From contig LVLI01000149.1 in assembly GCA_001687465.1 (NCBI GenBank), forward strand, positions 1 through 34,033: a stretch of DNA of 34,033 bases, written 5' to 3'. Within the stretch, counting starts at the first letter, position 1. Every line of letters starts with the position of its first letter. A program made the position numbers and the translations under genes. Positions 6,669 to 29,127 of the stretch are shown in pieces. The stretch comes from Halocafeteria seosinensis (lineage: Eukaryota > Sar > Bigyra > Bicosoecida). The notes under the pieces were generated by a model. It saw only the letters and a list, made by a program, of their open reading frames with translations, did not search any database and was not told the DNA's origin.

Positions 6669-7725
6669 CTAACATGGGCATGCAATGTTTTGCTTATTGC
6701 ACTCCGTGTTCCCAAAGTCGTTATTTGCTGTTGGCGGCAGGTAATTATACATGAATGAAGCAGCTTTCTCCCGGACCGACCGATCCTCTGCAGCCTCCCC
6801 GTCTGCACTATGGAAGTGACCATACTTGGTCCACGGATGGTTTAAGAAATCAGTAGTTGAGCAACGCTCAGAATCATCGATACTCACCATGATATGTGCT
6901 TGAGTAACTCTTGCGGTGACCTAGTACCACCTTATATACCTCTGCTGGTCAATACACTGCAGTTGCATATTATCTAGCTGACCAGTTGTCTGAAGAAACG
7001 AGACAAAGCCTAGATAGCATTGAGAGAAGCTGCGGAAGGACGTGTACCTACCAGCATTACACACAGAAGCGTTCTAAGGCACCAAATATCCCCTTTCTTA
7101 GCTTCCCCGGGAATTTTGCCCTGGAAGATCCTCCTGAGAATTTACTTGGAGACAGACCCCTGGAGGTGCATTCAGTAAGGTTCCTCTCACATGCCGCCTC
7201 TAAATCCCACCATTGGCCGCGGGATTCTTTCGGTCTATGGTTAGAGATGACGCTACTCCCACGTTCCCGTCCACCACCGACCAAGAAATTTTCAAGCTTA
7301 ACATCGTAATGCGCAACACCGCGAGAGTGGGCGAAATGAAGAGCCGCAGCATATCCACCGAAGGTATGATTAAGTTGAAATTGGCCTCTCCATGCGCTTC
7401 TTCGATTTATACCCTTGATTACTTACGACAGACAGATTCTTGCAGTTTCTTCGGGAAGTTTCCCGGCCCTTCGGGGTTCTAGGAGATGGTCAGATTGCGC
7501 CGATTTCGTCTGTATTATCAGGACTTTGTCCAAACAACCCGTTGGATTTATTGCTTCCACTGTTCTTCCAGAAGCAGTGAGTTTGGACTGCCCTCCAGTG
7601 CGGCGGGGAGTTCCACTCTCATTCCTATCCACTGCGAAGCCTCAAGATGCATAGAGAGGGTAATACGGAACCTCCTCTACAGAACTGGATGTGGACCACT
7701 TACAGCCACCGTGGCCAATCTTCTT
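6669..7725 (-). pseudogene. decayed Ser/Thr protein kinase, third family copy
   Basis: Pieces of the kinase family at 9351-10599 and 11390-12762 lie in order on the minus strand but in different frames. From 7725 an acceptor-like CCAG leads into KKIGHGG (glycine loop). Around 7530-7423 a frame reads QTKSAQSDHLLEPRRAGKLP, matching PMELAQSDLLIEIRRVGKLP of the intact copy. Near 7345-7290 is HFAHSRGVAHYDVKLENF, where the catalytic HCDVKPEN has become HYDVKLEN. A shifted frame then gives VRGTLLNAPP (intact: VRGTLLYAAP). The end of the domain, RCSTTDFLNHPW, lies in 6890-6820. Most of the segment between the activation loop and subdomain XI is missing. Frameshifts, stops, the lost DWG and the altered catalytic loop argue against activity. 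Confidence 0.75.
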
Positions 7726-9350: not shown

Positions 9351-10599
9351 ATGGAGAGCCTAAGAGACACAACAACGCGCGTTGATATTCAAGTAGGTTG
9401 CTTGCCCTTTGTACATGTCTCCCCTGACTTTGTTTACAAAAGAATCTTGACCCGCAGTGGAAGATTGGTGTGGGCGTATCGGCTGAGGTGTTTTATGGAT
9501 TGCGGGGCGGAAAACCATTGGCTCTTAAAGTTTTTCGCACACTCAGAGAAGCACAGAGTGAAGAAGCGGCAGTACGTTATGGCTTTTGATATCTCTCAGT
9601 ACTGTTTACATTTAACACTGTAGTCACTCCAGCGGAAGCAACTGCACTTCGAATCTTCGTCGGAAACTCAGATTATCCCCTTTATTCTAACAATGGAAAA
9701 ACTATGTACTATCGAAGGAAAGCAGCTACGTCCAATAAAAGGTAATGCAGGAAGCTTGCTGAATATCCCCCTCAATCCTGTGGTCATGCCTATGGAGCTC
9801 GCGCAATCCGATCTATTGACGGAGATTATGCGAGTTGGAGGGTTACCTCAAGATACTGTACGGAAGTGTCTCTTGCAAATCTGCTACGGTATGTCGAAGG
9901 AATGCGTTAATAGCAGCATATACAGGAATTGTAACTGCAATGATAAATGCAGCATTGGATTATGCCCATATGCGAGGGGTAGCGCATTGTGATGTCAAAC
10001 CTGAGAACGTCCTCGTAGGGTTAGACGGACACCTGAGACTCGCAGATTGGGGATCGGCAGTGATCGACTACGACTGCACAAGTGCTGATAATGAACTATG
10101 GAGCTATCGCCTCCGTGGAACAATGCAGTACGCAGCTCCTGAAATCGTCTACCAATACAGTATCCTTGGGAGATCCTCAAACGTTAAATACGTGTGGGAC
10201 GCTAGGAAGGCCGATGTCTGGAATGCCGGCATTCTTATGTATGTGATGCTATCTGGTCGACCACCTTTCCGAAAAGCGTCGCGAAAGGATCCTCTCTTTG
10301 CCAGATTTGTTGAGTCAACAGAACAAGAAGATGCAACAGATATTTTGGAAGCGGAGATGCACGAGCTATACTCGACGTCCTTTCCCAAATGGCCGAAACA
10401 GGATGCCGCTTTTGATTCTACCGATGACGCAAGATTCCAATGGCCAACGTCCAACAGCAATTGTCAGGAGCTATTGCGACGTATACTGAGTGTTAATCCT
10501 CGTAACCGTTGCGACATTCGTTCGATTCTGGAGCATCCTTGGGTGCGGAACCGACCGACAAATTCCGACTACGTGTCAGTAGGCAAAGAAACTGGATAG
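9351..10599 (+). CDS. Ser/Thr protein kinase with HCD/DWG motifs, copy A
   Basis: Predicted 352-residue protein kinase, essentially a bare catalytic domain. Exons: 9351-9392, 9458-9571, 9633-9888 and 9953-10599; all joins keep frame and use GT...AG. Visible features are the glycine loop IGVGVSAEVF (17-26), the ATP lysine in LALK (38), catalytic loop HCDVKPEN (149-156), metal-binding DWG (169-171) in place of DFG, AAPE in place of APE, DVWNAGILMYVMLSGRPPF, and the closing Arg plus LEHPW of subdomain XI. The key Lys and Asp residues are kept, so it is probably catalytic; HRD has become HCD, which may free it from activation-loop phosphorylation. It faces copy B tail to tail, and exon 2 is 114 nt in both. 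The start ATG was chosen because its short exon splices in phase onto the glycine loop. Substrate and pathway are unknown. Confidence 0.85.
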
Positions 10600-11389: not shown

Positions 11390-12762
11390 CTATCCCAAGC
11401 ACCCTACAGCGTGAAAACTCTGACTTCGAGACAAATCAGAAGAAACTTCGTTTCTGTGAGAAACCAGAGGCTCAGTAATTAGTGGAGTAGGATAGCTCAT
11501 ACTCGCGAAACCGTTGCTACGTATCCACGGGTGCTCCAAAATGTTGCTCATCGTGCATCGCTCCCCAGCATTCACCCTCAGCATTCTTAGTAATAAATGC
11601 TTTACTGATGGCATTTCCGCATTCGACGATTTAGGCCATAAAAATTCGCAAATTTCACAATGACTTGCTGAATCTCCAAAGTCCTCTGGATTAGTTAGTG
11701 AAGTGTCACTGTAGAGTTGCCGAAGCTCCTCTTCTAAAGATACCATTTTTTCCATTTGGTCAGTGGCTTGAAGAAATGAAACGAACCACGGATCTCTCCT
11801 AGAAGATTGATGAAATGGGGGTCTTCCTGTAAGTGCCACATATAGAAGTATGCCAAGACTCCACACATCACCCCTTGTAGCTTCCCAACGATATTTCGCG
11901 CGAGAAGAGCCTTGAGCGAGGTCATGTTGCAAGGATACTTCCGGAGCGGCGTACAGCAAAGTTCCTCTCACATGGCGACTCCATATTCCTTGCTCCGATA
12001 CTGCGCTCTCTTGGTCCACGCTCAACGACGATCCCCAATCGCTTACTCGAATATGCCCGTCCATTCCGATCAGAACATTTTCTGGTTTGATATCGCAATG
12101 TGCAACTCCTCGAATATGTGCGAACTGGAGAGCTGCAATAAAGTCCATACGATATGGCTCAAGAATAACTGCAAACCTCAAAGTATGGCTTCGTACCTTC
12201 GCAGATCTGGCGGATGCACTTCCGGGAAGTGTCCTCCGGCAGTTTCCCGACCCGTCGGATCTCAATGAGCAAGTCAGATTGAGCCAGTTCCATTGGCAAC
12301 ACTAATGTTTTTGTTAGCGATTTTGTAGGTGTAATTGGTTCCACTGACTCATGGAGGCCAAATTTCGTGGAGTCAACTTTGGCTACTTTCCGCGTCCGCA
12401 GGATGTACGGGGAACTATTCTCCGCACTCGATTGCAGCCGAACCCACTGTTTTTATCAAGCAAGAGGAGGAAGAGCTGTGTAATACACAAGGACCTCTTC
12501 CCAAGTTAGAGAAACATACAGCTTCGTTTTCGTTCCTGGCTGCTTCGATCGTGTGATAGCATTTAAGCGCCATTGGTTTCGAGTGCTGGAAGGCGTAATA
12601 CACCATGGCGTCGCCGCCTCTGCCTATCCTCTTCTGCACTCCCAAGAAGGCTGTGAAGGACGTCAATATCCAGCAAGATACCATAGATACACCTACTCTG
12701 ATAAAGATAGAGCTCGTCCGAAGATTCTGGCTCTGTCTGTCTGAAACGGGAGACGAGTCCAT
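11390..12762 (-). CDS. Ser/Thr protein kinase with HCD/DWG motifs, copy B
   Basis: Predicted 390-residue kinase. Exons on the minus strand: 12762-12697, 12633-12520, 12446-12197 and 12132-11390. It has the glycine loop IGRGGDAMVY (25-34), Lys46 in MALK, catalytic HCDIKPEN (155-162), DWG (175-177), AAPE, DVWSLGILLYVALTGRPPF and LEHPW near the end, then a tail of about 40 residues absent from copy A. The second intron was set by aligning ENEA|WVRLQSS with EEAA|RKQLHFESS of copy A; another donor 33 nt further in is possible but would make a 40-nt intron. Intron 1 (63 nt) is in frame and has no stop, so unspliced reading is also open. The gene is an inverted paralogue of copy A with all three intron positions shared. 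Substrate unknown. Confidence 0.85.
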
Positions 12763-14267: not shown

Positions 14268-15447
14268 TTAAGCTTGGATTTCGGGTTCCCCAGACAGTGG
14301 AGTCTTCCCTATATCACCTTGCTTTGGCTTTTGCTTGGGTTCGTTTTCAGTCTCCAGATAAGCTTTACCCACTTTTGCCACTATCAAACCAACTGCCATA
14401 GCAGGAAGGAAGACTGCTGCTGTCAAGGCTATACCTGCTCCAACCTGCGCCAGGGCAGGTCCTGGACATAATCCCGAGAGGCCCCAGCCTAGTCCAAACA
14501 TCCAAGCGCCCAGGAGCATCTGCAAAGTAATTTCAGTCGAGCAAGCGTTGTCATAAGAACAGCCTAGCATGGTGCAACCCCTCTTGCTTGCGTATCTGAA
14601 TGCTGGTAGTGAGACGAGAACAGCTCCACCCATGACAAAGATTACTTGTGGATCCCAATTTGTCCCATTCAGAAAACCGACGACCTTAGATCGCCGTGTC
14701 ATTCCACCATATATCAGGCCGATTGCAAATATGCAACCTGCACTAAGCGGGATAATAGATTTTTGGAAGGCTTCTCCTTTGTGCATACTCTTATATAGCA
14801 TGACTCCCGCCAGGATGAGTTCTGATGCAATCATCGCATACGATAACTCCTCTAGCGGTTCCACGCATATCTCCGGGTTATCCGTTGTCAAGAACGAGGA
14901 AATATTGTTGATTGTGGTAGCCATCGCAAATCCCGAAGTTAAGAAGGTAATCACTGCTGCTAGCGAGCGTTTACTCAGTCTGCCTAGACCGCAAACTCCA
15001 TGCCCTGCCGTTCAAGTAAGGCGGACGGTTGATGGTAACTGGTTGGGTGCCACGTAAGCCTGTCTTGCAAACTTACCGCTTGTACATCCGTTTCCTAACT
15101 TAGTGCCTATCCCCACTAGCAGTCCTCCAAGAAGAGCACCGGCTATTGTATTTTCTTTAATTGATGAATCGCTGATGAAGTATGAATCGTCTAACAGTCC
15201 CCATATTGATGAAACTAGCAACAGCCCCGCCAGCCATAATCCTTTCCAATGATATGAGTGCTTTTCTAGCACAAGTACCCCCGAAAATATTCCGCTTATA
15301 CCTGCAGGGAAGGGCATTCTATGAAAGCTCAAGAAGATAAAGGGCAACTAGGAACGTTTACTTACCTGTTCGTTCTCCCGTTGTATGGAGGAGAAACGCA
15401 GTGGATAGTCCAATAATTAAGCCGCCTATAAGTCCTTCCCACCACAT
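14268..15447 (-). CDS. YeeE/YedE-family sulfur compound (thiosulfate-type) transporter
   Basis: Predicted 347-residue membrane protein of the YeeE/YedE (TsuA-like) family, whose characterised bacterial members import thiosulfate; a related sulfur compound is possible. Exons: 15447-15366, 15301-15077 and 15004-14268, with introns GTAAGT...CTGCAG and GTAAGT...GGCAG. The joined protein starts MWWEGLIGGLIIGLSTAF. It carries both family signatures: GNGCTSGHGVCGLGRLS (97-113, Cys100 and Cys107) and GWGLSGLCPGPAL (about 275-287, Cys282), which line the substrate path by thiol contacts in known members. Many hydrophobic helices are visible and the length is normal for a one-chain member. The second intron lies inside the first signature. 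The 3' end of a BLH-like gene lies just upstream on the same strand, as in bacterial sulfide-response operons. ATG at 15447 is the first after an in-frame TAG. Confidence 0.92.
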
Positions 15448-16275
15448 TGCTGCAGAGGAAGTACTTGTAACGAAGTTAATGTTCCCCAATTGAATATTGG
15501 CCTATTTTTCGCGTAGTTGAAATGAAATTTGGGATCAGGTATCTATGCAAAACACCAATACATGTATTTTTCATAATTATCTGCATCTGGAAACATCAGT
15601 CCAATCAGCTGATGGTTCCGGAGTTTGAACGTCGGAGATAGCTGATGGAAGTTAGTGCATCAGCTGCAGTGGCGTGCGGAGACTTATTATAAGCTACATT
15701 ACGGCAGAGGTGTACCCATATAGCGTCTGTGGCGCACAGGGGGTGGATCAGTTGTATGCAAGAGCAGCATCATACGTTCTTCAAAAACATGTCCATTTTC
15801 CTTTTCTTGCTATTTATATTCCGATGCAGCCATGACCCATGAAACAGCCACAGGGAAAATATTAAACTCTTAACGAATTTATTGCACTTCTTGAGGAAGT
15901 TATTTATTACTTTCGGGCTCGTGAAGACCGCATACTTTGTTGGCAGGCAACGCCTTATCTCATCTGTGGATTCGATACATCAGAGTACGGTCGTCACTCA
16001 ATCCCGTATATCTATATACGCAAAATAAGTACTACATACCAATGAATTTTGGATAAGGAAGATTCAATTTGTGCATCAGATCTGCGAATTCCTCTTGACG
16101 CAAAGTGAGCCGAGGATTCAAAGCGCGTTCCTCAGCGACCGTCGTAAGCATACGCCCCTGTGATTTATAGGAGGCGCGTACAAATCTAATACGCATTAAG
16201 GAAAGAGCAGTCATTCAATAAAAAAGTGCATACCTTGTAGTCATGAGCTGGATAGAGCGCGCAGTGCTCTGGTAG
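15316..16275 (-). repeat. duplicated block, copy A (YeeE 5' end to BLH 3' end)
   Basis: This stretch matches 21800-22775 in the same orientation, with scattered substitutions and small indels. One boundary lies inside YeeE intron 1, immediately next to exon 2; the other lies in the middle of a BLH exon, at the codons for PEHCALYP. It therefore contains YeeE exon 1, the intergenic spacer and the last BLH exons. Confidence 0.9.
15604..15667. promoter_or_regulatory. candidate repeated operator upstream of YeeE
   Basis: ATCAGCTGATGG at 15604-15615, AGCTGATGG at about 15640 and GCATCAGCTGCAG near 15657 form a cluster about 160-210 bp upstream of the YeeE start. The same core, CATCAGCTGATGG, occurs in the BLH/SulP promoter at 24225-24237. 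A shared regulator is an inference from this match only; E-box-like CAGCTG cores also arise by chance. Confidence 0.4.
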
Positions 16276-16379
16276 CATACATTGGAGCAGCGCTTCAATG
16301 TCTGATTGTCTCGTAGTCTGTGCGCCGCAGGCGAAAAATTTTTGCCCTGTCCTCGTAGTCTCAGCATACTCCGTCGACA
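15900..16379 (-). pseudogene. 3' fragment of a BLH/ETHE1-type gene with a foreign 5' exon
   Basis: The last exons of the BLH gene at 22407-23954 are repeated here: 16157-16040 (GRMLTTVAEERALNPRLTL...) and about 15958-15900 ([16 protein letters not shown], stop). The exon before them ends [13 protein letters not shown] at 16234, keeping the last metal-ligand His. Upstream of PEHC the sequence is unrelated to BLH: an acceptor TTACAG leads into STEYAETTRTGQKFFACGAQ, in frame. The first two thirds of the gene, including HxHxDH, are absent. A 5-nt insertion (ATGAG) at the last acceptor can be absorbed by a shifted splice. It is either a truncated relic or the end of a chimeric transcript. Confidence 0.8.
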
Positions 16380-16431
16380 CTGTAAGGAAAGCACTCTACT
16401 CTTAAGCACTAATTACTGCTGTCCCACTTGG

Positions 16432-16554
16432 GAGTCCGTACTCTCACGAAGTGTGTACCGTTGTTCACCTGTGAGTCCCTACTCTCACGAAGTGTGCGCC
16501 GCTGTTCACCTGTGAGTCCCTACTCTCACAAGGTGTGCACCATTTATCACCTGT
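16432..16554. repeat. three 41-bp tandem repeats
   Basis: Units start at 16432, 16473 and 16514 with GAGTCCSTACTCTCAC and end with CACCTGT; a partial fourth GAGTCCCTA follows. Units differ at a few positions. The GAGTC word resembles the eroded repeats near the left end of the window. Confidence 0.85.
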
Positions 16555-16845
16555 GAGTCCCTAATGTGCACATGATAGATCATTTCTTGGGGAATCTTGG
16601 GTCACTTGTAGAGTAATGTTAGGTTTTCTTTTATTTTTCCTCAATCTGTGTAAGAGTAAATACAATACACACAGGTTATCCCAAGAAGTGCGTGCCGCTG
16701 AGTCCCGATTGCTAAAGTTGCCTGCTTCAGGCTGCTTGGGAGTCTTCGTAGTACAGTGTAGTTCTAGAAGACCGCTAAAATAGTACCGCAGCGGAAAATG
16801 TTCTCCATGAAGTTTGGACACCCTTTCCACGTATGAGTCCCGCTC

Positions 16846-17142
16846 GTGAAACCTTGCGAGTATGGGGTTCGGATCGTAACACGCCTTCTAAATACGGAGA
16901 AGGCGTTCATTCATGATCCCGTTGAGGAACCAATCAAGATTGAGGAAGAGGTGGATGAAGAAGAGACTCAGATTTGTCATCCGCGAAAGCGCGGACGCTT
17001 TGAAATTGCTATCGCAGCGCCTCCTCAAGGGAAGACACAAATAGAAGAGGAAATCGAACGGATACTACACCTCATCAGGAGAAAAGGATTTGATTCTCAT
17101 TTGCCCCCTACTGTACTCAGGAGAAAGATAACACACGGATGA
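16846..17142 (+). CDS. possible small acidic protein or exon, unrecognised
   Basis: A frame with strong compositional bias: EEPIKIEEEVDEEETQ followed by RKRGRFE, then an amphipathic IEEEIERILHLIRRKGFD. This looks like real coding sequence, but it has no ATG; the frame opens with GTG, so an upstream exon would be needed. After RRKITHG it meets TGA, while the next frame continues KERRVIAEKEGVPFLQ before a stop, so a frameshift or unseen intron may lie near 17135. No family recognised. It may be a relic of the mobile element debris to its right. Confidence 0.3.
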   Translation: MKPCEYGVRIVTRLLNTEKAFIHDPVEEPIKIEEEVDEEETQICHPRKRGRFEIAIAAPPQGKTQIEEEIERILHLIRRKGFDSHLPPTVLRRKITHG

Positions 17143-18313
17143 AGGAGCGAAGAGTTATTGCGGAAAAGGAGGGAGTTCCTTTCTTGCAGGGAGCAGATGA
17201 GGTGTCACCGTGACACAGACCGTACCACCAGAAATACTCTTTCAGAATAAAGGAATCTCTTATACTGTGCACGTATGGTATAACTAGTAATGATATCATA
17301 CTCCATTCAAGTAAAGCTTACATATATCCATACAAGGAATAGTCGACTGAGCCCACCTCCGCCGCTCAAGGACATTCGTGGGAGGCGAGGAATCGGCGTT
17401 CCCATGTCCCCATATGACCATAGTGCGTATGCCAGGAGGCTCAGGACGTATTCTTTCACCTCCAGGAACTAAGAGCGGAGCACCGTGTTGTACGCGTTTG
17501 TTTGGTCCATCGAGATCGTTGCTACTCCTCCATGTCGCAGATTGTTCGTCAATAGCTGCGTGATTTCTCCTGGCCCCTTCTGTACCGAGGGCAAACTGGT
17601 GTGGGGCCAAGAGCTCACAAAATTGTTGTTTGAATTCCTGCGCTACCGTCCGATGTAAGTCGAAAAAGGGTCTCGTCTATTGCTATTGGTTTCATTGTGC
17701 TACCGTCCGATGTAAGTCGAAAAAGGGTCTCGTCTATTGCTATTGGTTTCATCTTCGATATTGCCTTGTTTACCGCATCGGTTGATGCTTGGTAGAGTGT
17801 TGTCCCCTGCGGTCCTTCATGTCTGATGGCTGCCAGCTGGTCTCGGCTGCTCGCGGGTGTAGTTCCTCAAGTTTTCGTAGTGTCTCCTCTGTCCGCAGGG
17901 CTTTATTCGTGCACGTAAGGGCCGATACTGCTTTTCGATCTTCGCCCTCGCGTAGTTGTTGTCTGCATTTCTAAATCCTTTTGGCCATGGGAATGGTTGG
18001 TTCCTGGTTCCCTTCTCCGTCGGGATCCATGGTCTTCCCCTCCTGCCATTGTTCCTAGAGCGGCTTTTCGGTCGCACCGATGCCGCGAACAGAAACTGGG
18101 ATGCGCACCGACACCAGAAGTACACCCGGCCACGAAGGATATCGAAAACCTCGTGACACTCTGAAAAACCGGAGAGGCGACCGTAGATGCGGAACTAGAG
18201 GCCTGGAACAAGCTCAGCCACACGCTAGGACACCGAGAGCCTGAGCAGCGGTGACAACGGACAATGCCTCTGCGCGGTAAGTATTCCTGCAAGATAAGGT
18301 TCACATACAAGCA
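17143..18313. other. mobile-element debris, no intact gene
   Basis: Between the acidic frame and the RNase H remnant. Minus-strand frames here are long and Arg/Pro/Ser-rich, compatible with the trailing part of a retroelement, but none carries a clear domain. Confidence 0.4.
17642..17752. repeat. 57-bp tandem duplication
   Basis: Two essentially identical units begin with GCTACCGTCCGATGTAAGTC at 17642 and 17699 and run to GGTTTCAT. Their near identity indicates a recent duplication. Confidence 0.9.
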
Positions 18314-19131
18314 GGTATGTGTCCTGATGTGCTCAGCGAGCGACCTCGTGTTTGGGTATGCTTTGCTGCAGGCGGCGTAGTCGTCATAGTAGGACGTCAG
18401 CGTTCCTCCTGTGCGGGCGCCTGTTTTCCGGTGGCTGCGGGTGCCGCGATATGCTTGCATCCTGTGGCGTCGTATCTAAAGGTATATCGGAGGTTGGTCT
18501 ACGCTGAAGAAGTCTGCTTCCGTTAGCCTGTAGTTTTCCTGGGAGGGATACCAATTTTGCATCTTGTCTCACCAGGTTATGTTGGTCGCTCCAGTGCTCT
18601 AGCGTCGCATTGGAAGTTGATTGTGTGCTTTGTGAGGCCGTCTGCAAATGTGTTGGCTTCTCTTGGGACCTGTCCTATTCTCAGGCGATATAGGTTAGGA
18701 ATCTTCTCCAGATCTTCCAGCTTCTTGGTGCATCTTTGGTACCATGGTATTACATTGTATTTGGGGTTCATTTACGACGTAGCGCTGTTGTAATTGTTTC
18801 ACTACTGTGGTGGAGTTCTCGAGCACTTCGGGTTCCAACTGTCACTTCCTCATTGATAGTGTCGAGGAACTCGATGCTTAATTGTGGTGCGAGGTCCGCA
18901 GAGGCCGTTTTGGCCAGGTTGTTCTTAGAACAACCTCGTATCTGGTCCTAAGAACATGCGTCTCCATGCGTACTCGTCTGTCCTTCCGTCTCCTGTTTTA
19001 AGGAGGCACGTCGTTTGCGCCCCATCGAGGCCGGGATTGCCTCGTGCAGCCCCATCAAAATAGATTTGCAGCTCTACGACGCTCTGTACAGTTGTCCCAA
19101 ATTTTATATAACGAAGCCAGATACCAATCAT
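18314..19131 (-). pseudogene. RNase H-bearing retroelement remnant
   Basis: On the minus strand, LQIYFDGAARGNPGLDGA near 19070-19015 is the first strand of an RNase H1-type domain with its leading catalytic Asp. About 400 bp further on, RIGQVPREANTFADGLTK matches the end of such domains with the last acidic residue. The part between is broken by stops and frame changes (NNLAKTASADLAP in a shifted frame recalls the usual TNNxAE motif). Further downstream, 18400-18314 reads CSKAYPNTRSLAEHIRTHT, a C2H2 finger that lacks its first Cys. RNase H followed by a zinc finger fits the 3' end of a non-LTR retrotransposon. No reverse transcriptase was found. Confidence 0.65.
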
Positions 19132-19184
19132 GAATCCGCTTACGGTAACATATAATAAGCAGTATCACGAAAAAAAAGGACTAT

Positions 19185-19660
19185 ACAAGAGAAAAATATA
19201 AAACATATAAAGAGAGAGATACAGAGAATTGTAACCAAAAATTTTAATGCGGATATTGCAATTCATTCATTCGTAATGAGGATGAGGCTCCCCATCAAGA
19301 CTAGAAAGTGTCAAAAGCTTCAACTTTAAAATAAACCGTTAACACATTAGATGTTTACGAGTAATTACCACTTGGTACTTCTACAAAAAAGCAATATCAA
19401 AAACATTATCTAAATTTTATACTTAATTTATATTTAGTTTCTGAATCTGCAATTTAAGCCCCTAACTCACGCAGAAAAAAGCTTTCCCCTATCCCGTATT
19501 ACTGCGTATTTTTCCTCTGACTTTTCGAGTAAATCCCCATTAAAGATTTTATATGCTTTTGCTTTGACTCTAGTACTTTTACCCCTTGAACAAATTTTTT
19601 CATTTATTTGATAAAACTTATATGAGCAAAATTTATATTTGTCCTACAGTGGTAGCAGTG
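19185..19660. other. AT-rich island
   Basis: Base composition changes abruptly to strongly AT-rich, unlike either flank. A minus frame of about 58 codons, read from about 19650, begins after a TAG and includes VKAKAYKIFNGDLLEK; it is Lys-rich and unassigned. Possible sources are an organelle DNA insertion, the tail of a mobile element or an origin-like region. There is no ATG-led gene. Confidence 0.5.
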
Positions 19661-19669
19661 AAGCCTTCT

Positions 19670-20448
19670 CTACTCACCATAGTGCATCTCGTCGCCAAGG
19701 GAAGGACCGCTAATTTTAGGCATTGATATGTGGTCGTTTAGATGTTCCTCATTAATTGGTTCTTCGGTTCCAGAAATGGGGTCTCTAATATCTTGTGGTA
19801 AGAACGGGAAGTTGCTCGGTGCCGATGGACAACTTGACTCAGAAGAAAGGCTAGCAAGGGCATTCCTTAGATGGTATATGACCATATTCTTGTACTGTAT
19901 CATTCTGTCCTGCTCCGACAGCTTCTCTTCCATCATTCTTATTCGCTGTTTGAGCTCGTGCCTTTCTTTCTCCTTCCTCTTCCGGCTCTCGGCGGCGGTA
20001 AATCTATTCTTCAATTTCCTTGCTGCCTTCCGGGCCTCTGGTCTGTGCACGTGACAACATAAAGCCAAAATTGCTCTTCAAAAGTGAAGCGTAGCTGAAC
20101 TTACCCACTGCCTTTGGCGATACGCTTTAGCTCCTCATTGGAGAGAATGGTAGCGAACTTTTCTGTCCCCTCCGCGTCTTGGTCTTGCGAGGGAGACTCG
20201 AAACCGCTCGCCATGGGCTTTTCGCCCGGATCATGCCTGCACCTTTTATTAGATATCCTGAACTGGCCATACCCTTGGTCTTCACCTTCAAATATATCAG
20301 CGGCATTTGCGCACATGTTCGAGTTTACTGAGGAGTTGCTGCATCCATTCAACAACGATTCTACGAAGAGGCTGTGCTCCCCGGATGCTTCGCCAACTCC
20401 GGTGGTTGGAACACTGGCCGATTCCCAAGCCTCTAGAACTTGCTCCAT
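19670..20448 (-). CDS. bZIP transcription factor
   Basis: Predicted nuclear DNA-binding protein of 238 residues. Exon 1 is 20448-20105 and exon 2 is 20042-19670; the 62-nt intron (GTAAGT...CACAG) splits a Gly codon. The join reads AKGSG|PEARKAARKLKNRF, completing the basic region with the bZIP signature N-x7-R in NRFTAAESRKRK. A leucine-zipper-like coil with Leu, Ile and Met at heptad sites follows (HELKQRIRMMEEKLSEQDRM). The N-terminal half is acidic and Ser/Asn-rich, the C-terminal tail short and acidic. An in-frame TAG sits two codons before the chosen ATG. It lies between the two halves of the sulfur gene set. Fungal bZIP proteins such as Cys-3 and Met4 control sulfur genes, so a local regulatory role is plausible but not shown. 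Confidence 0.88.
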
Positions 20449-21101
20449 CTCCTAGCACTACGATAGCTTGCCGAACTGAGAGAAGTTTCGTTAGATATAA
20501 CAGGTGAACCTCGACAAGTGGTGGAAATACGGTAGACGTTCGGATCCTACAACCTGGCAAGACTCCTCTCTAAGTGCGCTGGCGAACGAGTGTGGGCGCG
20601 TGTGCTCAGTCCAGTTTTTTTATTGTTGAGCTCTAGGCAAATTGATGCTATGGTACTGTCTATCGATCACATAAATCGAAGGTATATGTTCGGCAAGCTC
20701 GCACCTGGTGTCCAATTTTACAAATGTAACTTATTTGAGTATACAGCTGCTGGCGCAAAGCACTCGATTCGTTCGCAGAACATAAATTTGGAACACCATC
20801 TCGGCGAAGGTCTGCCACTGGACTGCCAAGCCCATGCGAACCACGAACTATTACGAGCAAAACCGAAGAAACATGATAGCTAACTTTTCATAAATACATA
20901 AGTAACATTGTTGCCGTGCTGAGTAATATTGTTGCTGATGCTGAGGCAGAGAGAGTGTACCGGAATTGCTGTCGGTAACAGGCATTGTGAACCAACAGTT
21001 TCGCTTCGCTGGCTGCCAGCTGTTAATGACAGCTTGTCATTGGCCATGTGAAGAAGAATACACTGTGGGACATCGCAACCATGCAACATTCTGCAGTTGC
21101 T

Positions 21102-21136
<35 letters not shown>

Positions 21137-21799
21137 TTTGCACCAGGCAACTTAGCCATCGCTGTACTTGCTCGGAAGGATCCCAAGCTGACGCTTGGGT
21201 AAACTCCGTTGCAACGAGGTCCCAACCATGTGAAACTTAAGATTTATTTTGTAAAATTTGTTCTGGGGGTAAGACTTAGTTAAGTCCCAACCTCTGTGAA
21301 ACTCCACCACTGTAACTTGCTAGCGTCGTCTGCTTCGCAGCCAGTGTACCTAGGGGATTCGCTTTCTGTTGTGTGGTAGCTGTGCTACTACACCCCTTGC
21401 GAGTCTGTGGAGCAGCACTGTACGGATTGGCACAACCTGGGTACATACTTCTTTCAGCGCCTCGCCATACATGCATGCTTCCAACAATGGTTCACTTTGG
21501 CGGTTAGCCTCAGACGGTTGCTGTGTACACATACGAGAGAGCATATTAAGCATTCCACCTCGCTGCATATTTCAAATTCCAGTATCTCGCTCCTTGATCT
21601 TTCACAGCAGCCGGCTGTCCCTCTTGGGAATTTTGATCAGGGTAAATTGTGAGAAACATTATTGACTTTGCTTTGCCGTATTCGATTTAGAACTTGTACA
21701 CTCCTTTATCCTAAACAGGAGGTAGGTGCTGCTGAACTTGAGCGCAGCAGCGTCCGGTTGGAAATGGTAGTGGGTGCCTTCGAGCAGTCTTTCTCGGCT
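20449..21799. other. intergenic, no supported gene
   Basis: About 1.35 kb upstream of the bZIP gene. It contains a CA microsatellite. Short plus frames at 20590-20883 and 21369-21665 lack domains, composition bias or splice partners. Confidence 0.45.
21105..21133. repeat. CA microsatellite
   Basis: About 14 CA units, the longest dinucleotide tract in the window. Confidence 0.95.
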
Positions 21800-22775
21800 A
21801 TTCTATGAAACCCCAAGGAGATAAAGCCCAACTAGGAACGTCTACTTACCTGTTCGTTGTCCTGTTGTATGGAAGAGAAACGCAGTGGAAAACCCAACAA
21901 TTAGGCCGCCTATAAGTCCTTCCCACCACGTTGCTGCAGAGGAAGGGTTTCCGAAGCGTGACAAAATTAATGTTTTCCAATTGAATATTGGCCTATTTTT
22001 CGCGTAGTTGAAATCAAATTCGCGCTTGTGTATCTATGCAAAAAACCAAAACATTCATTTTCCATAATTGTCTGCATCCGGGAACCCCATCAACTGATGC
22101 TCCGGAGTTCGAAGCTGACGGAAGTTAGCGCGGAAGCTCAGCTGACCCAGCTGGCAGAGGAGTGCAGACGTACTATTAGCTACACTACGGCAGAGTTGTA
22201 TACATATAGCGTGTAAAGCGCACAGCAGATTGGTCCGTTGTATGCGAGAGCAGCATCATACGTTCAACAAGAAGTCCATTTTCCTTTTCTTGCTATTTCT
22301 ATTCCGTTGGGAAAAGTTCAACTACTATATTGCAGCCATGACCCATGAAATGGCCACAGAGAAAATATTAAACTTTCAAGCGACTTTATTGTACATATTG
22401 AGGAAGTTATTCATTGCTTTCCGGCTCGTGAAGACCGCATACCTTATTGGCAGGCAATGCCTTATCTGCGGATTCGATATACATATCAGAGTACGATTGT
22501 CATTCACATCCCGTATGTCTATATACGCATACCACCTACCAATAAATTTTGGATGAGGAAGATTCAAGTTGTGCATCAGATCTGCGAATTCCTCTTGACG
22601 CAAAGTGAGCCGAGGATTCAAACCGCGTTCCTCAGAGACCGTCGTAAGCGTACGCCCCTGTGATTTATAGGAGGCGTGTATAAATCTAATACGTGTTAAA
22701 GAAAGATTAGGCATTCTATAGAAAAGTGCCTACCTTGTAGTCATGAGCTGGATAGAGCGCGCAGTGCTCTGGTAG
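21800..22775 (-). repeat. duplicated block, copy B (YeeE 5' end to BLH 3' end)
   Basis: Same-orientation match to 15316-16275, from ATTCTATGAAA inside YeeE intron 1 to GGTAG in a BLH exon. Here BLH continues intact beyond the block and YeeE stops at the block edge, the reverse of copy A. Confidence 0.9.
21850..21931 (-). pseudogene. dead first exon of a second YeeE gene
   Basis: An 82-nt exon of the same length as the live gene's exon 1 reads WWEGLIGGLIVGFSTAF and ends in a good GTAAGT donor. The ATG has become ACG at 21931-21929, and no further YeeE exon exists downstream. The reading frame is otherwise undamaged, so loss of the rest of the gene may be fairly recent. Confidence 0.85.
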
Positions 22776-23954
22776 AGACAGGATCTGAGTGTGCACCGAG
22801 CGGTACAAGGTCTTCGGGTTGCCCTGTTGGAAGTCTGTTCTTCCACATCCTCTATACAACAGTGCATCACCGGTAAACGCCATACTCTTGTCATTCATGA
22901 CAAAAGTGACACAGCCATCAGTATGCCCTGGTGTCGCTCGGACATTCAACTTGAAGCGCCTGCATACATAGCGGACTGTGGAAGTGGAGGGTTCATTACT
23001 TGTGGCTGTCCATACCGTACCCGAATGTAATATCGTCCCCTGGTTTTACATAGATATCGGCTTGTGCACCTGAAGTCGTAGCAATAAGCGATTTAACGCC
23101 CACCAGCTTTTTCTTCAGCAATCCAGTACCCGTGATGTGGTCAGCATGCATGTGGGTGTTCACTGCACAGTCACTCGAGCGATTCGATAGGCCAGCTTCA
23201 TTCATAACAGATCGATGCGAACTTAAAACTTACTTGCATACTTCAGTCGGATACCTAGTTCCTTTACAAGCTGGATATCCCGGTCAACAAGTGTATCCAC
23301 GGGGTCGATGAGCACTCCTTCCCGGGTATCAGCATCCGCCAGTAAGTATGTATAGGTGCAACTTTCGCGATCAAACAATTGCCGAAAGATAAGGCCTGAA
23401 TGCTGTCTAGGTACAACAGAGGCCGCAACTTCGCACACATTCACTTTCGATACCCATTCCTTGCACGCTTCTTTCTGCAGGAAGTGCGCGTTGTTCAGTT
23501 TGGCCCACGACATGATGGTTGGACCACTCCAGTTCTCGCGCATAGCTATCCCCAAAGCCGCGACGGCAGAGGCTCTGCATCCGGTCCTGCACTGAATCAC
23601 GGCAGGGGTAGGAAGCTCCTTGAGCGTATCCATCACTTCACGTCGGAGCTCGTCGCTGAGGATGGGAGACACCTGCATCGAGACGATAACACGGTTCAAT
23701 CAATCAATTTCAATGCCTCATACGCAACCCATTGCGCGTACCGGCACGGGAGTGCGCTTGTATACGGCTCCTTCCGTGTTGGCTAGTTCATGTGTGCGCT
23801 CTACTTTGTCTGTCCAGCCATGTTCGGCAGCTTCCTCATCGGAGAGAAGCTGCATCCAACCCTTCACATGGTACTCATGCAGCAGAGAGCAGGTCTCTTC
23901 ATCCGAGAGAGCTCCACAACAAATGTAGGGTCCTAGAAACGTCGCTTTATCCAT
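22407..23954 (-). CDS. blh: BLH-type fusion: DUF442 domain plus ETHE1-like persulfide dioxygenase
   Basis: Predicted 405-residue enzyme. Six exons: 23954-23742, 23672-23234, 23162-23016, 22975-22734, 22657-22540 and 22465-22407. Residues 1 to about 125 form the DUF442 (phosphatase/rhodanese-like) domain with the active-site loop CRTGCRAS at 99-106. The rest is a metallo-beta-lactamase fold of ETHE1 type: HMHADH (221-226), GHTD (284-287), TGDALL with Asp303 and YPAHDYKG with His344 are the iron ligands; [10 protein letters not shown] (309-318) is the family signature. Such enzymes oxidise glutathione persulfide to sulfite; fused forms serve in bacterial sulfide detoxification. No mitochondrial targeting peptide is evident. 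The first donor is uncertain: GTACGC after PVP was chosen because it restores the DUF442 pattern; GTATGA 15 nt later would also keep frame. It is divergent from the SulP gene and upstream of a dead YeeE exon. Confidence 0.92.
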
Positions 23955-24355
23955 GGTGGATGCACGTTCTATGGAATAACACAGACAAAGTGTGTATGCT
24001 GGTATGTTAATATCCCGGTGGATCCGCAAAGATATTGGATATTACTTCATCAGCTTGTTTTTCTACAAGACAGTATTTTCAATGACCCAATGCAAGAAGA
24101 GGCAGCAGAACAACCCCAATGTAATCTTGAAAACTACCCCTGTACCTGTTTTTTCGCTCGTTCCTTCCTTCCATACAGCAGCAGCAGCTGATGGGAGGGT
24201 ATTCCGTCTTCATCTGCACTTCCTCATCAGCTGATGGACGCCGGAGGCGGGATACCATATATGGTATTTCAATGAAGCCCATTCGCGCAGGATTGTTGCG
24301 TGCCTCACAAGATAACTGTGTACGGGCACTCGTATTTTAAGCTTTGGCCTCGGTA
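23955..24355. promoter_or_regulatory. shared divergent promoter of BLH and SulP genes
   Basis: The two start codons are 401 bp apart and face away from each other, so one short region probably controls both genes. Three symmetric elements cluster at 24225-24267, nearer the SulP gene. No TATA box was assigned. Confidence 0.6.
24225..24267. promoter_or_regulatory. palindrome cluster, candidate operators
   Basis: CATCAGCTGATG (24225-24236) is a perfect 12-bp palindrome. CCG-GAGG-CGG (24241-24250) is an everted pair of CGG triplets, the half-site type read by Zn2Cys6 proteins. ATACCATATATGGTAT (24252-24267) is a perfect 16-bp palindrome. A further CAGCTGATGG lies at 24185-24194. The symmetry is seen directly; binding by the local factors is inference. 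Confidence 0.5.
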
Positions 24356-27283
24356 ATGGATCAGAATAACAGGGACAAAGATGGAGGACCCGGAGGTGAA
24401 ACTAGCCGACGGGGCGCCGGGACGGAGGAATCCCAGGTGACTGTGGCCATTGAAGGCCAAGATGGAATGACGGAGCCCGAAGGGACCCATGACACACTAC
24501 GGTCTTTGATAGAAGAACGCGAGCACTATGAAATGGATCATCGCACATCACTGGTGAAACAGCTATGGAAGGCGACCAAAACTTACATACCGCGACTCAA
24601 TCTTCCAAGTGTGCTGCGAGACAACTATTTCACCAGTAAATCATGGGCCGAAAGTTTGGCTAGCGATGCTGCAGCGGGATTTGTTGTCGCAGGTGCGTTC
24701 TCCCAAAAGTTGTTTGATCTGCTTTTGGTGCCTTTCATATTCACAACTGGCAACGAATTGCAGTTTTGCTGATTCCACAAGGCATGGCCTATGCTGCCTT
24801 AGCAAACATAGACGCAAAATTCGGATTGATCTCGAGTGCAGTAGCGGTACTTGTATTTTGCCTGTTCGGGAGTTCCAAGCATCTCGCGGTAGGCCCTACT
24901 GCGCTCATGTAAGGAAGAGCACTTGTCGATCCTCAATACACGTATTACGGCATAAGTACATGGTTCAATGATCCATGGATGCAGGTCGCTGCTAACAGCT
25001 GAAGCTCTTCATGAATTTGGAATTGATCCGATAGCGGAACCGAAACGACAAATTCTCGGCGCGACCACACTAGCATTCCTTGTGGGACTGTTTACGCTCA
25101 TTCTTGGTTCGTGGTTCGCCCCAATGATGATACTGTTAACAACATAAAACGTAGTGGCTCTTGCTGTCACTGAGACCACAGGAATCGCAAAAGCAGGACA
25201 TTTAGCTTCGTTCTTCTCTCGGCCCGTTTTAAAGTCGTTTACCACCTCTGCAGGTAGGAAACCGTATAAAGTGGTAGCACAGATATATTGAGAAGGAGAA
25301 TCATGCCATTTGATTGGATTTGCAGCTATTGTTATTGCATCGTCACAGCTAAATAAGCTTTTTGGCATACCTAGCAGAAGGTCTTCGGCTGTATACAACA
25401 TATGGATTCACGTAATTGAGAACCTCGAGAATGTACGTGCTGCTGACTGTAGGACCCGTTCTCAAGTGGGTAGGTAAAATTGCTGCACTCCAGGCTCAAC
25501 CCGAGACCATATATCTCGCAATTGAGAGTATAGCATTACTTCTCGGTCTCAAATATGGCAAGAAGCATTTACTAAGATATATAGAACGGCTTCCAGAAGT
25601 GCGGCAGCAACGACTCCTATGGCTGCAGGTGAGTTTATCTCGCACTTTTCTTCACTGAGACAACCTATCGTCGGAATGTGGACTACAGCGCGTTGGAAAA
25701 ACGTTTCCTACTCCCCTTGTTGTTGTGGTCGTCAACATATTGATAGTATGGGGCTTTAGTCTTGATGAGGACGTGAAGGTAGTAGGAAAACTAGACAGTG
25801 GCTGGGTTTCGAGGGGTAAGGACGTTCAAGGCCTCACTGAGCCAGTCCTCATGTCTAGAAAAGATGATGAATATTTTCTGCAGATGATATATTTATAGGG
25901 GATATAGCCCATTTTACTATCACGATGCTTCCATCTGTTATCGTGATAAGCATATTGGGGTTCATCGAGTCGTTTTCCGTTGCTAAGACGTACGCATTGA
26001 AGAGCGGAGACAAGCTAGATGCAGACCAGGAACTAGTAGGATTAGGATTTGCCAACGCTGTGGGTGGACTTTTGGGCGCATTTCCAACCACCGGAGGGCT
26101 ATCTCGTACAGCTGTTCATGCCGACGCAGGAGTGAAGACACAAGTATCTGGCCTGATATCAGGGGTATTGCTCTTATTGGTGATATTCTTTCTCCTCCCG
26201 CTATTCGAACTGCTACCGGAGGTGACACTTGCTAGCATCATTATCGTTGCGATTACCGGAATGGTGGACTTCTCGGTTCCCGTCCGCCTGTGGAAGATAA
26301 ATCGGTCAGACTTTAGCGCTTGGTGTGTTACATTTCTCTTGACTCTTCTCGTGGGCGTTGAACCGGGAGTTCTGTTCGGCACACTGTTTTCCCTTCTCGT
26401 CGTGTTAAAGAATGCCTCTCGGCCGCACTGGGCAGTACTCGGGCTCCTTAAAAGCAGTAGCCCAGATAATCCGGTGTACAGAAACACCAAGAATTACCCC
26501 TACTCCACAGAAGAGGAACCAGGAGTCCGTATTCTAAGATTTGACAGTCAACTTTTCTTTGCGAATAGCGAATATTTTGTCACCAACGTTACGGAGCTGG
26601 GGACTCATAAAATTGACTGGATGGACATGGTTAGTTGACCGACGATTACTCGTCATATGCTTTTCGTGATCACGTTTATTCTTGTGTTGCAGCAATTGGA
26701 ATGGTTAGAGCCGAAAGTTGTGGCAATTGATATGGGGAGTGTTGCCAATATAGACTACACTTCGTTGCAAGTGCTTCGAGAACTGCCAGCAACGATGAAG
26801 AAGGTAGCTGTAGCGGAACGGAAGAGATCGATAAGAAGGCTCAATCGGCTGAAGGAAGAAAACGCATCAGAAGAGGCCAAGATTGATGGTTTGATTACCA
26901 CTCTCCAAGATTTCGTTAACCTGCAGGTAAGAATCGTTTTGTTGATTTACTTCATATACTGGAGATGAATTCGGCATCTAAACGTACAGGTTCCTGCCAT
27001 CGTGCTGTTCACTGTCAGAATACCCATAATTAGAGGCATACTATCAATGAAGCATGCATTGGGAGAGAGTACCAAGATAGACCACGTAGCTTTGGATTCA
27101 AAAGCCGCAACTTCGCAAGACCATATCCCTTATTTCGTAGTTGCGTCCGCAGAAAATGCTCGCATGTTGATATTCATGGACCACGGCTTACAAACTAGTT
27201 TAGATCTTCCGCAAGGGATGAGGATACTCAAGAATTTACTCGGGATACACTTTTTCGATGCGAGAAAAGCTGATGAAGAATAA
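24356..27283 (+). CDS. SulP-family anion (sulfate-type) transporter with STAS domain
   Basis: Predicted 772-residue membrane transporter in ten exons: 24356-24692, 24764-24908, 24985-25106, 25182-25253, 25326-25432, 25494-25628, 25689-25815, 25884-26629, 26693-26926 and 26990-27283. All phases agree. After a hydrophilic N-terminus of about 105 residues come SulP signatures: VLLIPQGMAYAALA, HLAVGPTALMSLLT, SRPVLKSFTTSAAIVIASSQ, and SILGFIESFSVAKTYA followed by GLLGAFPTTGGLSRTAV. The membrane part ends near residue 530. A C-terminal STAS domain follows (FDSQLFFANSEYF to the end), with VVAIDMGSVANIDYTSLQVL and a charged insertion RKRSIRRLNRLKEE. Members move sulfate, sulfite, bicarbonate or other anions; the setting beside BLH favours sulfate or sulfite, perhaps removal or uptake of the oxidised product. 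Intron 3 has the weak donor GTTCGT, and intron 8 GTTAGT. Confidence 0.9.
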
Positions 27284-28077: not shown

Positions 28078-29127
28078 ATGGCTCCTGCTAAGAAGAAACA
28101 ATTCAGAGGGCGCGTCAATCGCGCCTGCCAATGGTGCGCGTCGAAGAAACTCAAATGCGACGGGGAACGTCCTTGTTTGGTAAGTCGTGCGTCCTGCATG
28201 GTAGTCTTACCGTAGAAGACAGTGTTGCCACCCCGTGGACGCGAACTTCAATTGCAGCGCTGTGTGACGAAAGGGATTGAAGGCGAGTGCGTGGACGCCG
28301 TGCCTAATGGAGAGCTCGGAAAGAGGTCGAGACACCAATCTTCACTCCCAAAGAATGGATCGAACGCGAACGCGAAAGGCGATGCGAGAGGTCAAATGAC
28401 TGCAGCGGCGGCCGCGGAATATCAGGAGGTGGAATCCGTTACTGGAGGAACCTGTTGCAACAGCACTCCGGCTACCATCTCCACTGTTGGGCAAACTTGC
28501 ACTGAACGCATAGAAAGCCACATGACTGCTAATGATATCGCAGCTCCCGAGAATGCGAAACGAAGAGATACTGGGCATTCCAAAATGAACTCAGGCGGTC
28601 AGAGGACAGAGTCGTACGTTTCCCTTTCCAAGAGTGAAGACTTTGCTGTATCCATTGAAATTCCAGAGCAAACTGGGACAAATATTCTGAATGGATATGG
28701 GCAGACTATGGAGTTCTCTAGCTTCCATAGAAGTGAACTCCCAGCTTGGGTCGTTGGATCACAGTTAGCATCCAATGGCACGACATGTAGCGAGCTTCCA
28801 TCCCTGGACCCTGCTCTATCTTACTACGATATGCTTACTGGAACAGCATCAGCCAGCACAGCAAATGACTCCTTTACTATCGAGGGTTGTCATGATGGTA
28901 CAACAGAGATGGAGCTTGCGCCGCAACCGATACTTCCCACCAATGGAACCTTGCAACTCGAGCCAGCAATGGAGGACGGTACTTTCCGAAGTTTCAGTCC
29001 CATTCCTCGATTGTCAGCAGCAAATTATCTGGCAGAAGATCCCTATGGATGGGGAATGCTCGACGAGGAGTGGAATTGCGCAAGTCCTGATGAGTGGCTC
29101 GTGGACTGTTTGCCCAGTGGAGGCTGA
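28078..29127 (+). CDS. Zn(II)2Cys6 transcription factor, paralogue 3
   Basis: Predicted nuclear regulator of 323 residues. Exon 1 is 28078-28179 and exon 2 is 28258-29127, with a 78-nt intron GTAAGT...TTGCAG in phase 0. The cluster has Cys17, 20, 27, 33, 36 and 45, spacing identical to the two paralogues at 1948-5394, with KLKCDGERPC|LRC... split by the intron just before Arg-Cys. A basic leader (KKKQFRGR) precedes it. The C-terminal end is acidic and Trp-rich (YGWGMLDEEWNCASPDEWL), a likely activation region. It sits 0.8 kb past the SulP gene on the same strand, so it is the Zn2Cys6 member best placed to act on the sulfur genes; that role is inferred from position only. Confidence 0.88.

Follow-up and report, generated by a model that had tools for sequence, protein, structure and literature searches.

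In eukaryotes, persulfide oxidation is usually described as a mitochondrial process carried out by ETHE1. The closest bacterial systems are the BigR-controlled yeeE-yedE-pdo2 operon of Acinetobacter baumannii and Serratia, which places two membrane proteins and a persulfide dioxygenase (PDO) side by side under an ArsR-family repressor (PMC7315123); the YedE1E2 zero-valent sulfur transporter of Cupriavidus pinatubonensis, which has a partner PDO, pdo being present in 177 of 212 yedE1E2-containing bacteria (PMC10812762); and the Blh protein of Xylella and Agrobacterium, in which a sulfurtransferase-like N-domain accompanies an ETHE1-like dioxygenase, an example of known DUF442-ETHE1 coupling (PMC5823870). 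Here we describe a gene set of similar content in the bicosoecid Halocafeteria seosinensis, in which a YeeE/YedE gene, a BLH-like PDO gene and a SulP anion transporter gene lie near a telomere. The window analysed is the entire contig LVLI01000149.1 (C102; 34,033 bases) of assembly GCA_001687465.1, which holds 30.6 Mb in 605 contigs, and a repeat scan places 13.3 copies of (TTAGGG)n at its right end (33954-34033, plus strand). Searches of the genome gave no match to light-harvesting proteins or to LYS2 of fungal type, and its ribosomal uL3 had its highest scores with plant and animal chains, as would suit a protist that is probably neither photosynthetic nor fungal. The set spans positions 14268-27283, exactly from the YeeE stop codon to the SulP stop codon. 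Exon models were predicted from DNA alone and spliced by hand at GT-AG introns, yielding three uninterrupted proteins: YeeE (347 residues, three exons), the BLH-like protein (398 residues, six exons) and SulP (767 residues, 10 exons). The preliminary description of this DNA, which had reported three sulfur-related genes near a telomere, was thus correct as to their presence and position.

We read this locus as a eukaryotic gene cluster for sulfane-sulfur uptake and oxidation, with the history set out below, and assign that reading a probability of roughly 0.6. It draws on gene content and orientation, an old adjacency of two of the genes, a second linked locus and phylogenetic trees. In the scheme that we propose, whose substrates, direction of transport and cell compartment are predictions from sequence, a fused YeeE-DUF6691 protein would move zero-valent (sulfane) sulfur across a membrane and pass it to glutathione as glutathione persulfide (GSSH). 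A DUF442-like domain of the BLH-like protein might perhaps load or pass on sulfane sulfur, the ETHE1-type dioxygenase of the same protein would oxidise GSSH to sulfite outside the mitochondrion, and SulP would move the resulting sulfite or sulfate, or take up sulfate. Oxidation of sulfite to sulfate would be completed by a cytochrome-b5 sulfite oxidase encoded elsewhere; the sole PF00174 match of the genome lies on contig C63, unlinked to the cluster, among cytochrome b5 and Mo-co dimerisation frames that together have the make-up of a sulfite oxidase. The cluster thus predicts, from three genes, an uptake-and-oxidation route outside mitochondria, in which an ETHE1 paralogue with a sulfurtransferase-like domain and without a presequence-like start is positioned with a sulfane-sulfur importer of bacterial kind. 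It would also be a case of operon-like gene content around a eukaryotic PDO; our literature search found no paper whose title or opening lines of abstract concern a eukaryotic YeeE-ETHE1 cluster.

The gene set probably works like bacterial yeeE-yedE-pdo(-sulP) operons without being an operon, and with an enzyme of the eukaryotic line. The likeness to bigR-type operons drawn in the preliminary description holds insofar as the set is functionally coherent, with linked YeeE, DUF6691 and PDO, insofar as BLH and YeeE stood side by side until inserted DNA separated them, and insofar as the YeeE-PDO pairing recurs on another contig. The two differ in layout. The BigR operon, as sections of PMC7315123 describe it, has two separate membrane proteins, whereas the window has a fused transporter, introns, genes on both strands and an ETHE1-type PDO with an extra N-domain. 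A close, unidirectional arrangement read as a single transcript is not found in the window, where SulP lies on the opposite strand and an interval of 7 kb that includes a bZIP gene now separates YeeE from BLH. The regulators seen at the window set are of bZIP and Zn2Cys6 type, in contrast to the ArsR-family repressor of bacteria, although no search aimed at ArsR was made.

Bacterial neighbourhoods were surveyed in two ways. Of the 80 bacterial loci whose PDOs come closest to that of the window (several cut by contig ends), one (L074) carries YeeE, DUF6691, SulP and PDO genes on one strand and another (L079) has a SulP gene about 3 kb ahead of a PDO-YeeE-DUF6691 run; the PDOs of these two loci are ETHE1-like and 56.6 and 56.7% identical to that of the window. 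In addition, a plasmid search with the window SulP matched 1730 records, and of the 30 listed we opened 10, namely the nine best-scoring annotated ones and one chosen for a YeeE hit in its record. A PDO lay within 2 kb of SulP in all 10 regions by tblastn with the window PDO (nine by annotation), and YeeE and DUF6691-type genes were present in eight, in some cases several kilobases away or on the other strand. These plasmid sets, from Rhodobacterales, Cupriavidus, Rubrobacter and Acaryochloris, have four functions in common with the window, SulP included, but their rhodanese-, PTP- or TIGR01244-type protein usually has its own gene, whereas the putatively corresponding N-domain of the window is joined to the PDO. 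Some of the plasmids with the set are typed as conjugative. One of these, the 21-kb Paracoccus plasmid p8, holds a whole ArsR-YeeE-DUF6691-PDO-rhodanese-SulP set, and the bacterial version may accordingly be mobile.

A fused YeeE protein and an ETHE1-type dioxygenase

The YeeE gene (14268-15447, minus strand; exons 15447-15366, 15301-15077 and 15004-14268) was named correctly in the preliminary description, except that it is a fusion of what are two proteins in bacteria. Residues 5-125 match PF04143 (38.0 bits) and residues 186-313 match PF20398, the DUF6691 family (107.7 bits), both above the Pfam cut-off of 27. Because each of the nine opened plasmid regions with both halves encodes them as two adjoining genes (in one of them, both are annotated YeeE/YedE), we take the window protein to be a fused form of the YedE1E2 pair, as its sequence indicates. 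Each half contains one cysteine in a conserved motif, Cys100 in GCTSGHG and Cys282 in GLCPGP. In bacterial YedE1E2, Cys104 of YedE1 and Cys101 of YedE2 are stated to be essential for the import of zero-valent sulfur (sections of PMC10812762), and Cys100 and Cys282 are their likely counterparts on our own reading of the motifs rather than on an alignment with that protein. The C. pinatubonensis transporter likewise has both halves with a cysteine in each, but consists of two polypeptides, while the window protein is a single chain with a hydrophobic stretch between its halves (residues 155-173 in a crude hydropathy scan, and present in both YeeE copies of the genome) that could tentatively be a linking helix. 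Taken together, both halves and both cysteines suggest directional import of sulfur by the fusion protein.

A role in sulfur assimilation, in which the cluster would scavenge thiosulfate or sulfate for cysteine synthesis, seems improbable to us. TsuA-type relatives of YeeE do import thiosulfate, as is stated for YedE3 in sections of PMC10812762, and the window protein gives a weak match to the TsuA model NF052577. That match reaches only 31.3 bits against a cut-off of 400, however, and the YedE1-YedE2 (DUF6691) make-up of the window protein is of the other kind; YedE3 did not speed polysulfide uptake (same sections of PMC10812762), and a dioxygenase would destroy the sulfane sulfur.

The BLH-like gene (22407-23954, minus strand; exons 23954-23742, 23672-23234, 23162-23021, 22959-22734, 22657-22540 and 22465-22407) is a dioxygenase gene, as first described, but its designation as BLH needs qualification. 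The protein scores 110.5 bits against the NCBI Blh model for bifunctional sulfur transferase/dioxygenases (NF040641), far from the 625 bits set as the curated cut-off; Pfam does not recognise its N-domain; and its PDO half (PF00753, 66.3 bits) resembles ETHE1, being closer to the human enzyme than to Blh of Xylella and Agrobacterium. Over the PDO domain, identity is 63.9% to human ETHE1, 60.2% to Arabidopsis ETHE1, 59.0% to a Burkholderia PDO-rhodanese and 50.9% to Myxococcus PDO1, the ETHE1 reference structures being human 4chl and 2gcu, the latter of which we take to be the Arabidopsis protein. Residues H57, H59, D61, H62, H113 and D132, which comprise an HxHxDH motif and a later histidine and aspartate, are invariant across seven aligned PDOs and presumably include the iron ligands.

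Phylogenetic analysis placed the window PDO in the ETHE1-type line of eukaryotes. In a first tree of 54 rows (40 of the 80 bacterial loci kept, eight distant operon rows dropped, and L074, L079 and a further bacterial locus, L119, left out), it joined its paralogue on contig C76 with support of 100/93, and the two joined Arabidopsis and human ETHE1 with 99/91. In a second tree of 41 rows, which took in all 12 loci linked to YeeE or SulP, the corresponding values were 100/96 and 93/66. Membership of this clade suggests that the protein is a GSSH dioxygenase. In a YeeE tree of 21 rows, including all 19 loci with both halves, the window and C76 proteins grouped at 100/100, and the nearest bacteria were the Myxococcota-type loci L079, L119 and L074 (90/89), on a long stem.

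These trees bear directly on whether a whole bacterial operon was transferred horizontally and subsequently broken up, with gain of introns. The gene content is that of bacterial operons, some of them on plasmids typed as conjugative, and the loci nearest by YeeE include L074 and L079, which also carry SulP and an ETHE1-like PDO. Nonetheless, the window PDO falls with the human and Arabidopsis enzymes in both trees, and has as its sister a paralogue whose introns are placed alike, and a grouping of these two with the PDOs of L074, L079 and L119 was rejected (approximately unbiased test on the second tree, AU p 0.0088); over the tblastn matches, the plasmid PDOs are only 24-29% identical to it in eight of 10 regions and 45-46% in the other two. 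We rejected this transfer as the main account on the strength of the PDO trees and shared introns, and hold it to be a poor prospect. The related claim of import as one operon is likewise not supported, given the same PDO placements and test and a SulP that sits on no supported branch of its tree. An ancient transfer of YeeE alone is compatible with the sequences. The preliminary description had counted grouping with unrelated eukaryotic housekeeping orthologues, unlinked in relatives, as evidence against a cluster; the PDO does fall with an orthologue from eukaryotes, but this genome links it to YeeE at two loci.

The window protein differs from the mitochondrial ETHE1 of its own clade in its linkage to YeeE, in a start that is not presequence-like (one Lys/Arg and five Asp/Glu in 30 residues) and in an N-domain of about 160 residues ahead of the PDO domain. 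This N-domain contains a C-x5-R-type loop, seen in the sequence as CRTGCR, and is 26% identical (E 3e-12 in a single comparison) to a PTP-family protein that a cyanobacterium encodes immediately upstream of a PDO gene. When plasmids were searched with it, five of nine records at E <= 1 were annotated as PTP family or sulfur transferase, with a best E of 9e-4. A DUF442-like identity is perhaps a lead. A search of the H. seosinensis genome with PF04273 found nothing, which would fit a short, diverged domain.

Old adjacency, a second linked locus and subtelomeric insertion

The window preserves a record of its own rearrangement in a 1-kb direct repeat, whose left copy (15313-16275) is 82% identical to the right copy (21796-22775). 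The left copy holds an intact YeeE start and a truncated second BLH 3' end (15900-16274, minus strand), comprising the last 41 bp of exon 4, exons 5 and 6 and the stop codon without any 5' part. The right copy holds the exon 6, exon 5 and exon 4 tail of the intact BLH gene, the old intergenic region and a dead YeeE exon 1 (about 21850-21931) whose ATG has become ACG. Both remnants were overlooked in the preliminary description, and its inventory of the span was to that extent incomplete. Identity between the copies is 94.9% in exon 5, 89.8% in exon 6, 89.0% in YeeE exon 1, 85-88% in introns and 83.3% in the intergenic region. Because the repeat unites the BLH 3' end, the intergenic region and YeeE exon 1, the ancestral order was BLH, 452 bp from stop to start, then YeeE, on one strand.

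The two genes were split by a 5.5-kb subtelomeric mosaic that includes a duplicated bZIP gene. Its left part (16276-16833) is a subtelomeric element matching the end of contig C196 and the start of contig C125 (98.6% over 16276-16565 and about 93.5% over 16678-16833), and its border falls within one base of the BLH truncation. A bZIP-bearing segment (19674-20603) is 89% identical to C402:15758-16691, and a dispersed repeat (21410-21719) is matched nine more times at 77-82% across its whole length or most of it, and twice in part. The 1-kb repeat may have arisen either by an earlier tandem duplication or through the insertion event. With its direct repeat and base-exact junction with a subtelomeric element, the locus is a clear example of a subtelomere breaking up a gene pair. 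Within the mosaic we also noted a repeat of about 110 bp (16563-16672) that 11 contigs carry within 2.2 kb of their start and that also occurs at some inner places, a candidate subtelomeric repeat, and by eye a short stretch (about 18960-19100, minus strand) resembling the RNase H motif of a retroelement.

Searches of the genome with the window proteins brought up a second YeeE and a second close PDO, and contig C76 carries the two of them; weaker PDO-like matches of 31-34% identity lie on C403 and C63. The hand-made models of YeeE2 (C76:30035-31201) and the second ETHE1 (C76:38863-40000) agree with the window copies in the placement of the two YeeE introns and of the four introns downstream of the point where the PDO domain begins. 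The N-domain is absent from the C76 ETHE1, which has a presequence-like start with seven Lys/Arg and no Asp/Glu in 40 residues. The YeeE-PDO gap is 7.66 kb on C76 and 6.96 kb in the window. The link recurs without its flanks, since, besides YeeE and PDO, window frames of at least 35 residues have matches in C76:20001-50000 only in the first 240 bases of the window. We noted that both pairs are now set 7-8 kb apart, and that, by eye, coiled-coil-like frames lie between YeeE2 and ETHE1 together with leucine-rich-repeat-like ones, the latter at L030:3400-8400 (C76:33400-38400).

It follows that a chance neighbourhood of three unrelated subtelomeric genes is very improbable. Subtelomeres are mosaic, and the present YeeE-BLH interval is itself inserted mosaic DNA, but chance would account neither for the old 450-bp adjacency nor for a second linked YeeE-PDO locus. 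Under random placement in 30.6 Mb, the probability of a YeeE no more than 10 kb from either PDO is 1.3e-3 for one YeeE and 1.7e-6 for both; the true chance lies between these values, because joint duplication would make the two cases dependent. In the history that we favour, PDO and YeeE paralogues would have stayed near each other on C76, while the window lineage would have had BLH and YeeE about 450 bp apart on one strand with SulP divergent from BLH, to be split later by the subtelomeric mosaic.

SulP and the shared promoter element

The SulP gene (24356-27283, plus strand; 10 exons, introns of 60-90 nt) encodes a protein with PF00916 (307.9 bits) and STAS (34.1 bits) domains, by which it belongs to the SulP/SLC26 family, and is to judge from its sequence an ordinary SLC26/SULTR-type protein. 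Its best solved relative, at 267.8 bits, is 'Sulfate transporter 4.1, chloroplastic', which we take to be an Arabidopsis protein. The family assignment was tested directly; anion transport is its predicted role, with a substrate and direction that we propose from the context of the cluster. The genome has seven SulP loci. In a tree of 25 rows, the window SulP sat on no supported branch, and the five of the other six genome SulPs that were put in grouped apart from it (84/84); the prestin structure 7v73 had an almost zero-length branch there, from which nothing is concluded. A special kinship with operon SulPs, suggested at first by a comparison in which the window protein was nearer to those of L079, L074 and L061 than to its own paralogues, was withdrawn after this unsupported placement and a control search with L004, another SulP of the same genome. 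The operon SulPs may simply be the bacterial SulPs most like eukaryotic ones; the operon gene content stands.

BLH and SulP are transcribed divergently from a 401-bp region between their start codons (23955-24355), which contains ATCAGCTGATGG at 24226-24237 and AGCAGCTGATGG at 24183-24194. The region upstream of YeeE (15448-15899, minus strand) contains the same palindromic ATCAGCTGATGG at 15604-15615, and these two places are its only exact occurrences in the window. Allowing one mismatch gives six matches against 0.23 expected, at four sites of which two count once for each strand, and every one lies in those two regions or at 22087 in the copy of the old promoter. Among 75 12-mers repeated in the window outside masked repeats, ATCAGCTGATGG alone occurs in both regions and alone contains a 10-bp palindrome, which is suggestive of co-regulation.

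These data are also the ones that weigh on whether YeeE and PDO form a two-gene unit with SulP as a subtelomeric bystander engaged in housekeeping sulfate transport. The unsupported placement in the SulP tree, the L004 control that retrieves many of the same bacteria, the presence of seven SulP loci and the lack of any SulP match on C76 would all suit a bystander. Such a gene would not be expected to have a 401-bp divergent promoter in common with BLH, carrying a palindromic 12-mer found elsewhere in the window only at the YeeE promoter, nor would one predict that SulP lies near PDO in all 10 opened plasmid regions or that five of the six other genome SulPs group apart. We regard a bystander SulP as unlikely, though it deserves serious attention.

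It is tempting to speculate further, and we do so tentatively, that this eukaryote rebuilt the functional equivalent of the bacterial persulfide-detoxification operon, drawing on duplicated ETHE1 and YeeE genes that were its own and on a SulP, with one palindromic promoter element for the three genes, a fused importer and an extramitochondrial bifunctional PDO, the importer-dioxygenase link having been kept through duplication and the window pair now torn by subtelomeric insertions.

A number of observations weigh against a cluster with the function and history that we favour. As regards the promoter element, ATCAGCTGATGG was noticed by eye before it was tested, and among 850 pairs of regions drawn at random, 17 also have a 12-mer or longer in common. 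No ATCAGCTGATGG site with up to two mismatches lies upstream of the C76 pair, the only two-mismatch site in C76:20001-40000 being in YeeE intron 1. In 79 kb of DNA from elsewhere in the genome, its 11-base core occurs exactly at C76:45078, an unrelated place, and again with one mismatch; the window has a one-mismatch core at position 5261. The second locus lacks a SulP match anywhere on C76 and has a gene order opposite to that of the window, and chance alone would bring one of seven SulP loci to 10 kb or less from either pair in about 0.9% of cases. Only 11 of the 80 nearest bacterial PDO loci carry YeeE and DUF6691, only three carry a SulP and two have both, while the L004 control shares 12 of 25 listed records with the plasmid search by the window SulP. 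The support for the eukaryotic PDO clade falls to 93/66 once YeeE-linked bacterial PDOs are included, and some of these (12 loci) are also ETHE1-like, at 54-60% identity to the window PDO. Finally, a Pfam search with the N-domain gave nothing up to E 10, DUF442 (PF04273) included.

Regulators and other features of the window

The preliminary description had placed a bZIP gene within the set and a Zn2Cys6 gene beside it as local regulators. Both genes are present, but the bZIP gene sits in inserted DNA and the case for local regulation is weak. The bZIP gene (19670-20448, minus strand, ATG at 20448) has two exons and is intact, with a PF00170 score of 21.5 bits, under the cut-off of 27.6. A close paralogue with open reading frames (L134, C402:15727-16551) lies with the 89% identical segment, and neither the YeeE search nor the BLH search listed a match on C402, which weakens the bZIP protein as a candidate regulator of the cluster. 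The Zn2Cys6 gene (28081-29127, plus strand) scores 34 bits against PF00172 (cut-off 21). Such domains have eight matches elsewhere in the genome by six-frame search, which registered none in the window because an intron splits the zinc cluster, and are found at two places in this subtelomere. The other of these, with a similarly split zinc cluster, is at 1948-3204 (minus strand), each scoring about 34 bits once spliced by eye; a third, similar-looking frame lies at 4334-5233 (minus strand).

Two protein-kinase genes of one type (9820-10599, plus strand, and 11390-12301, minus strand) score about 104-106 bits against PF00069, and a further kinase fragment seen by eye at 7057-7422 (minus strand) may point to a subtelomeric kinase family. 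Near the left end, a 105-bp unit is repeated in 1.9 copies with 96% matches (1729-1930).

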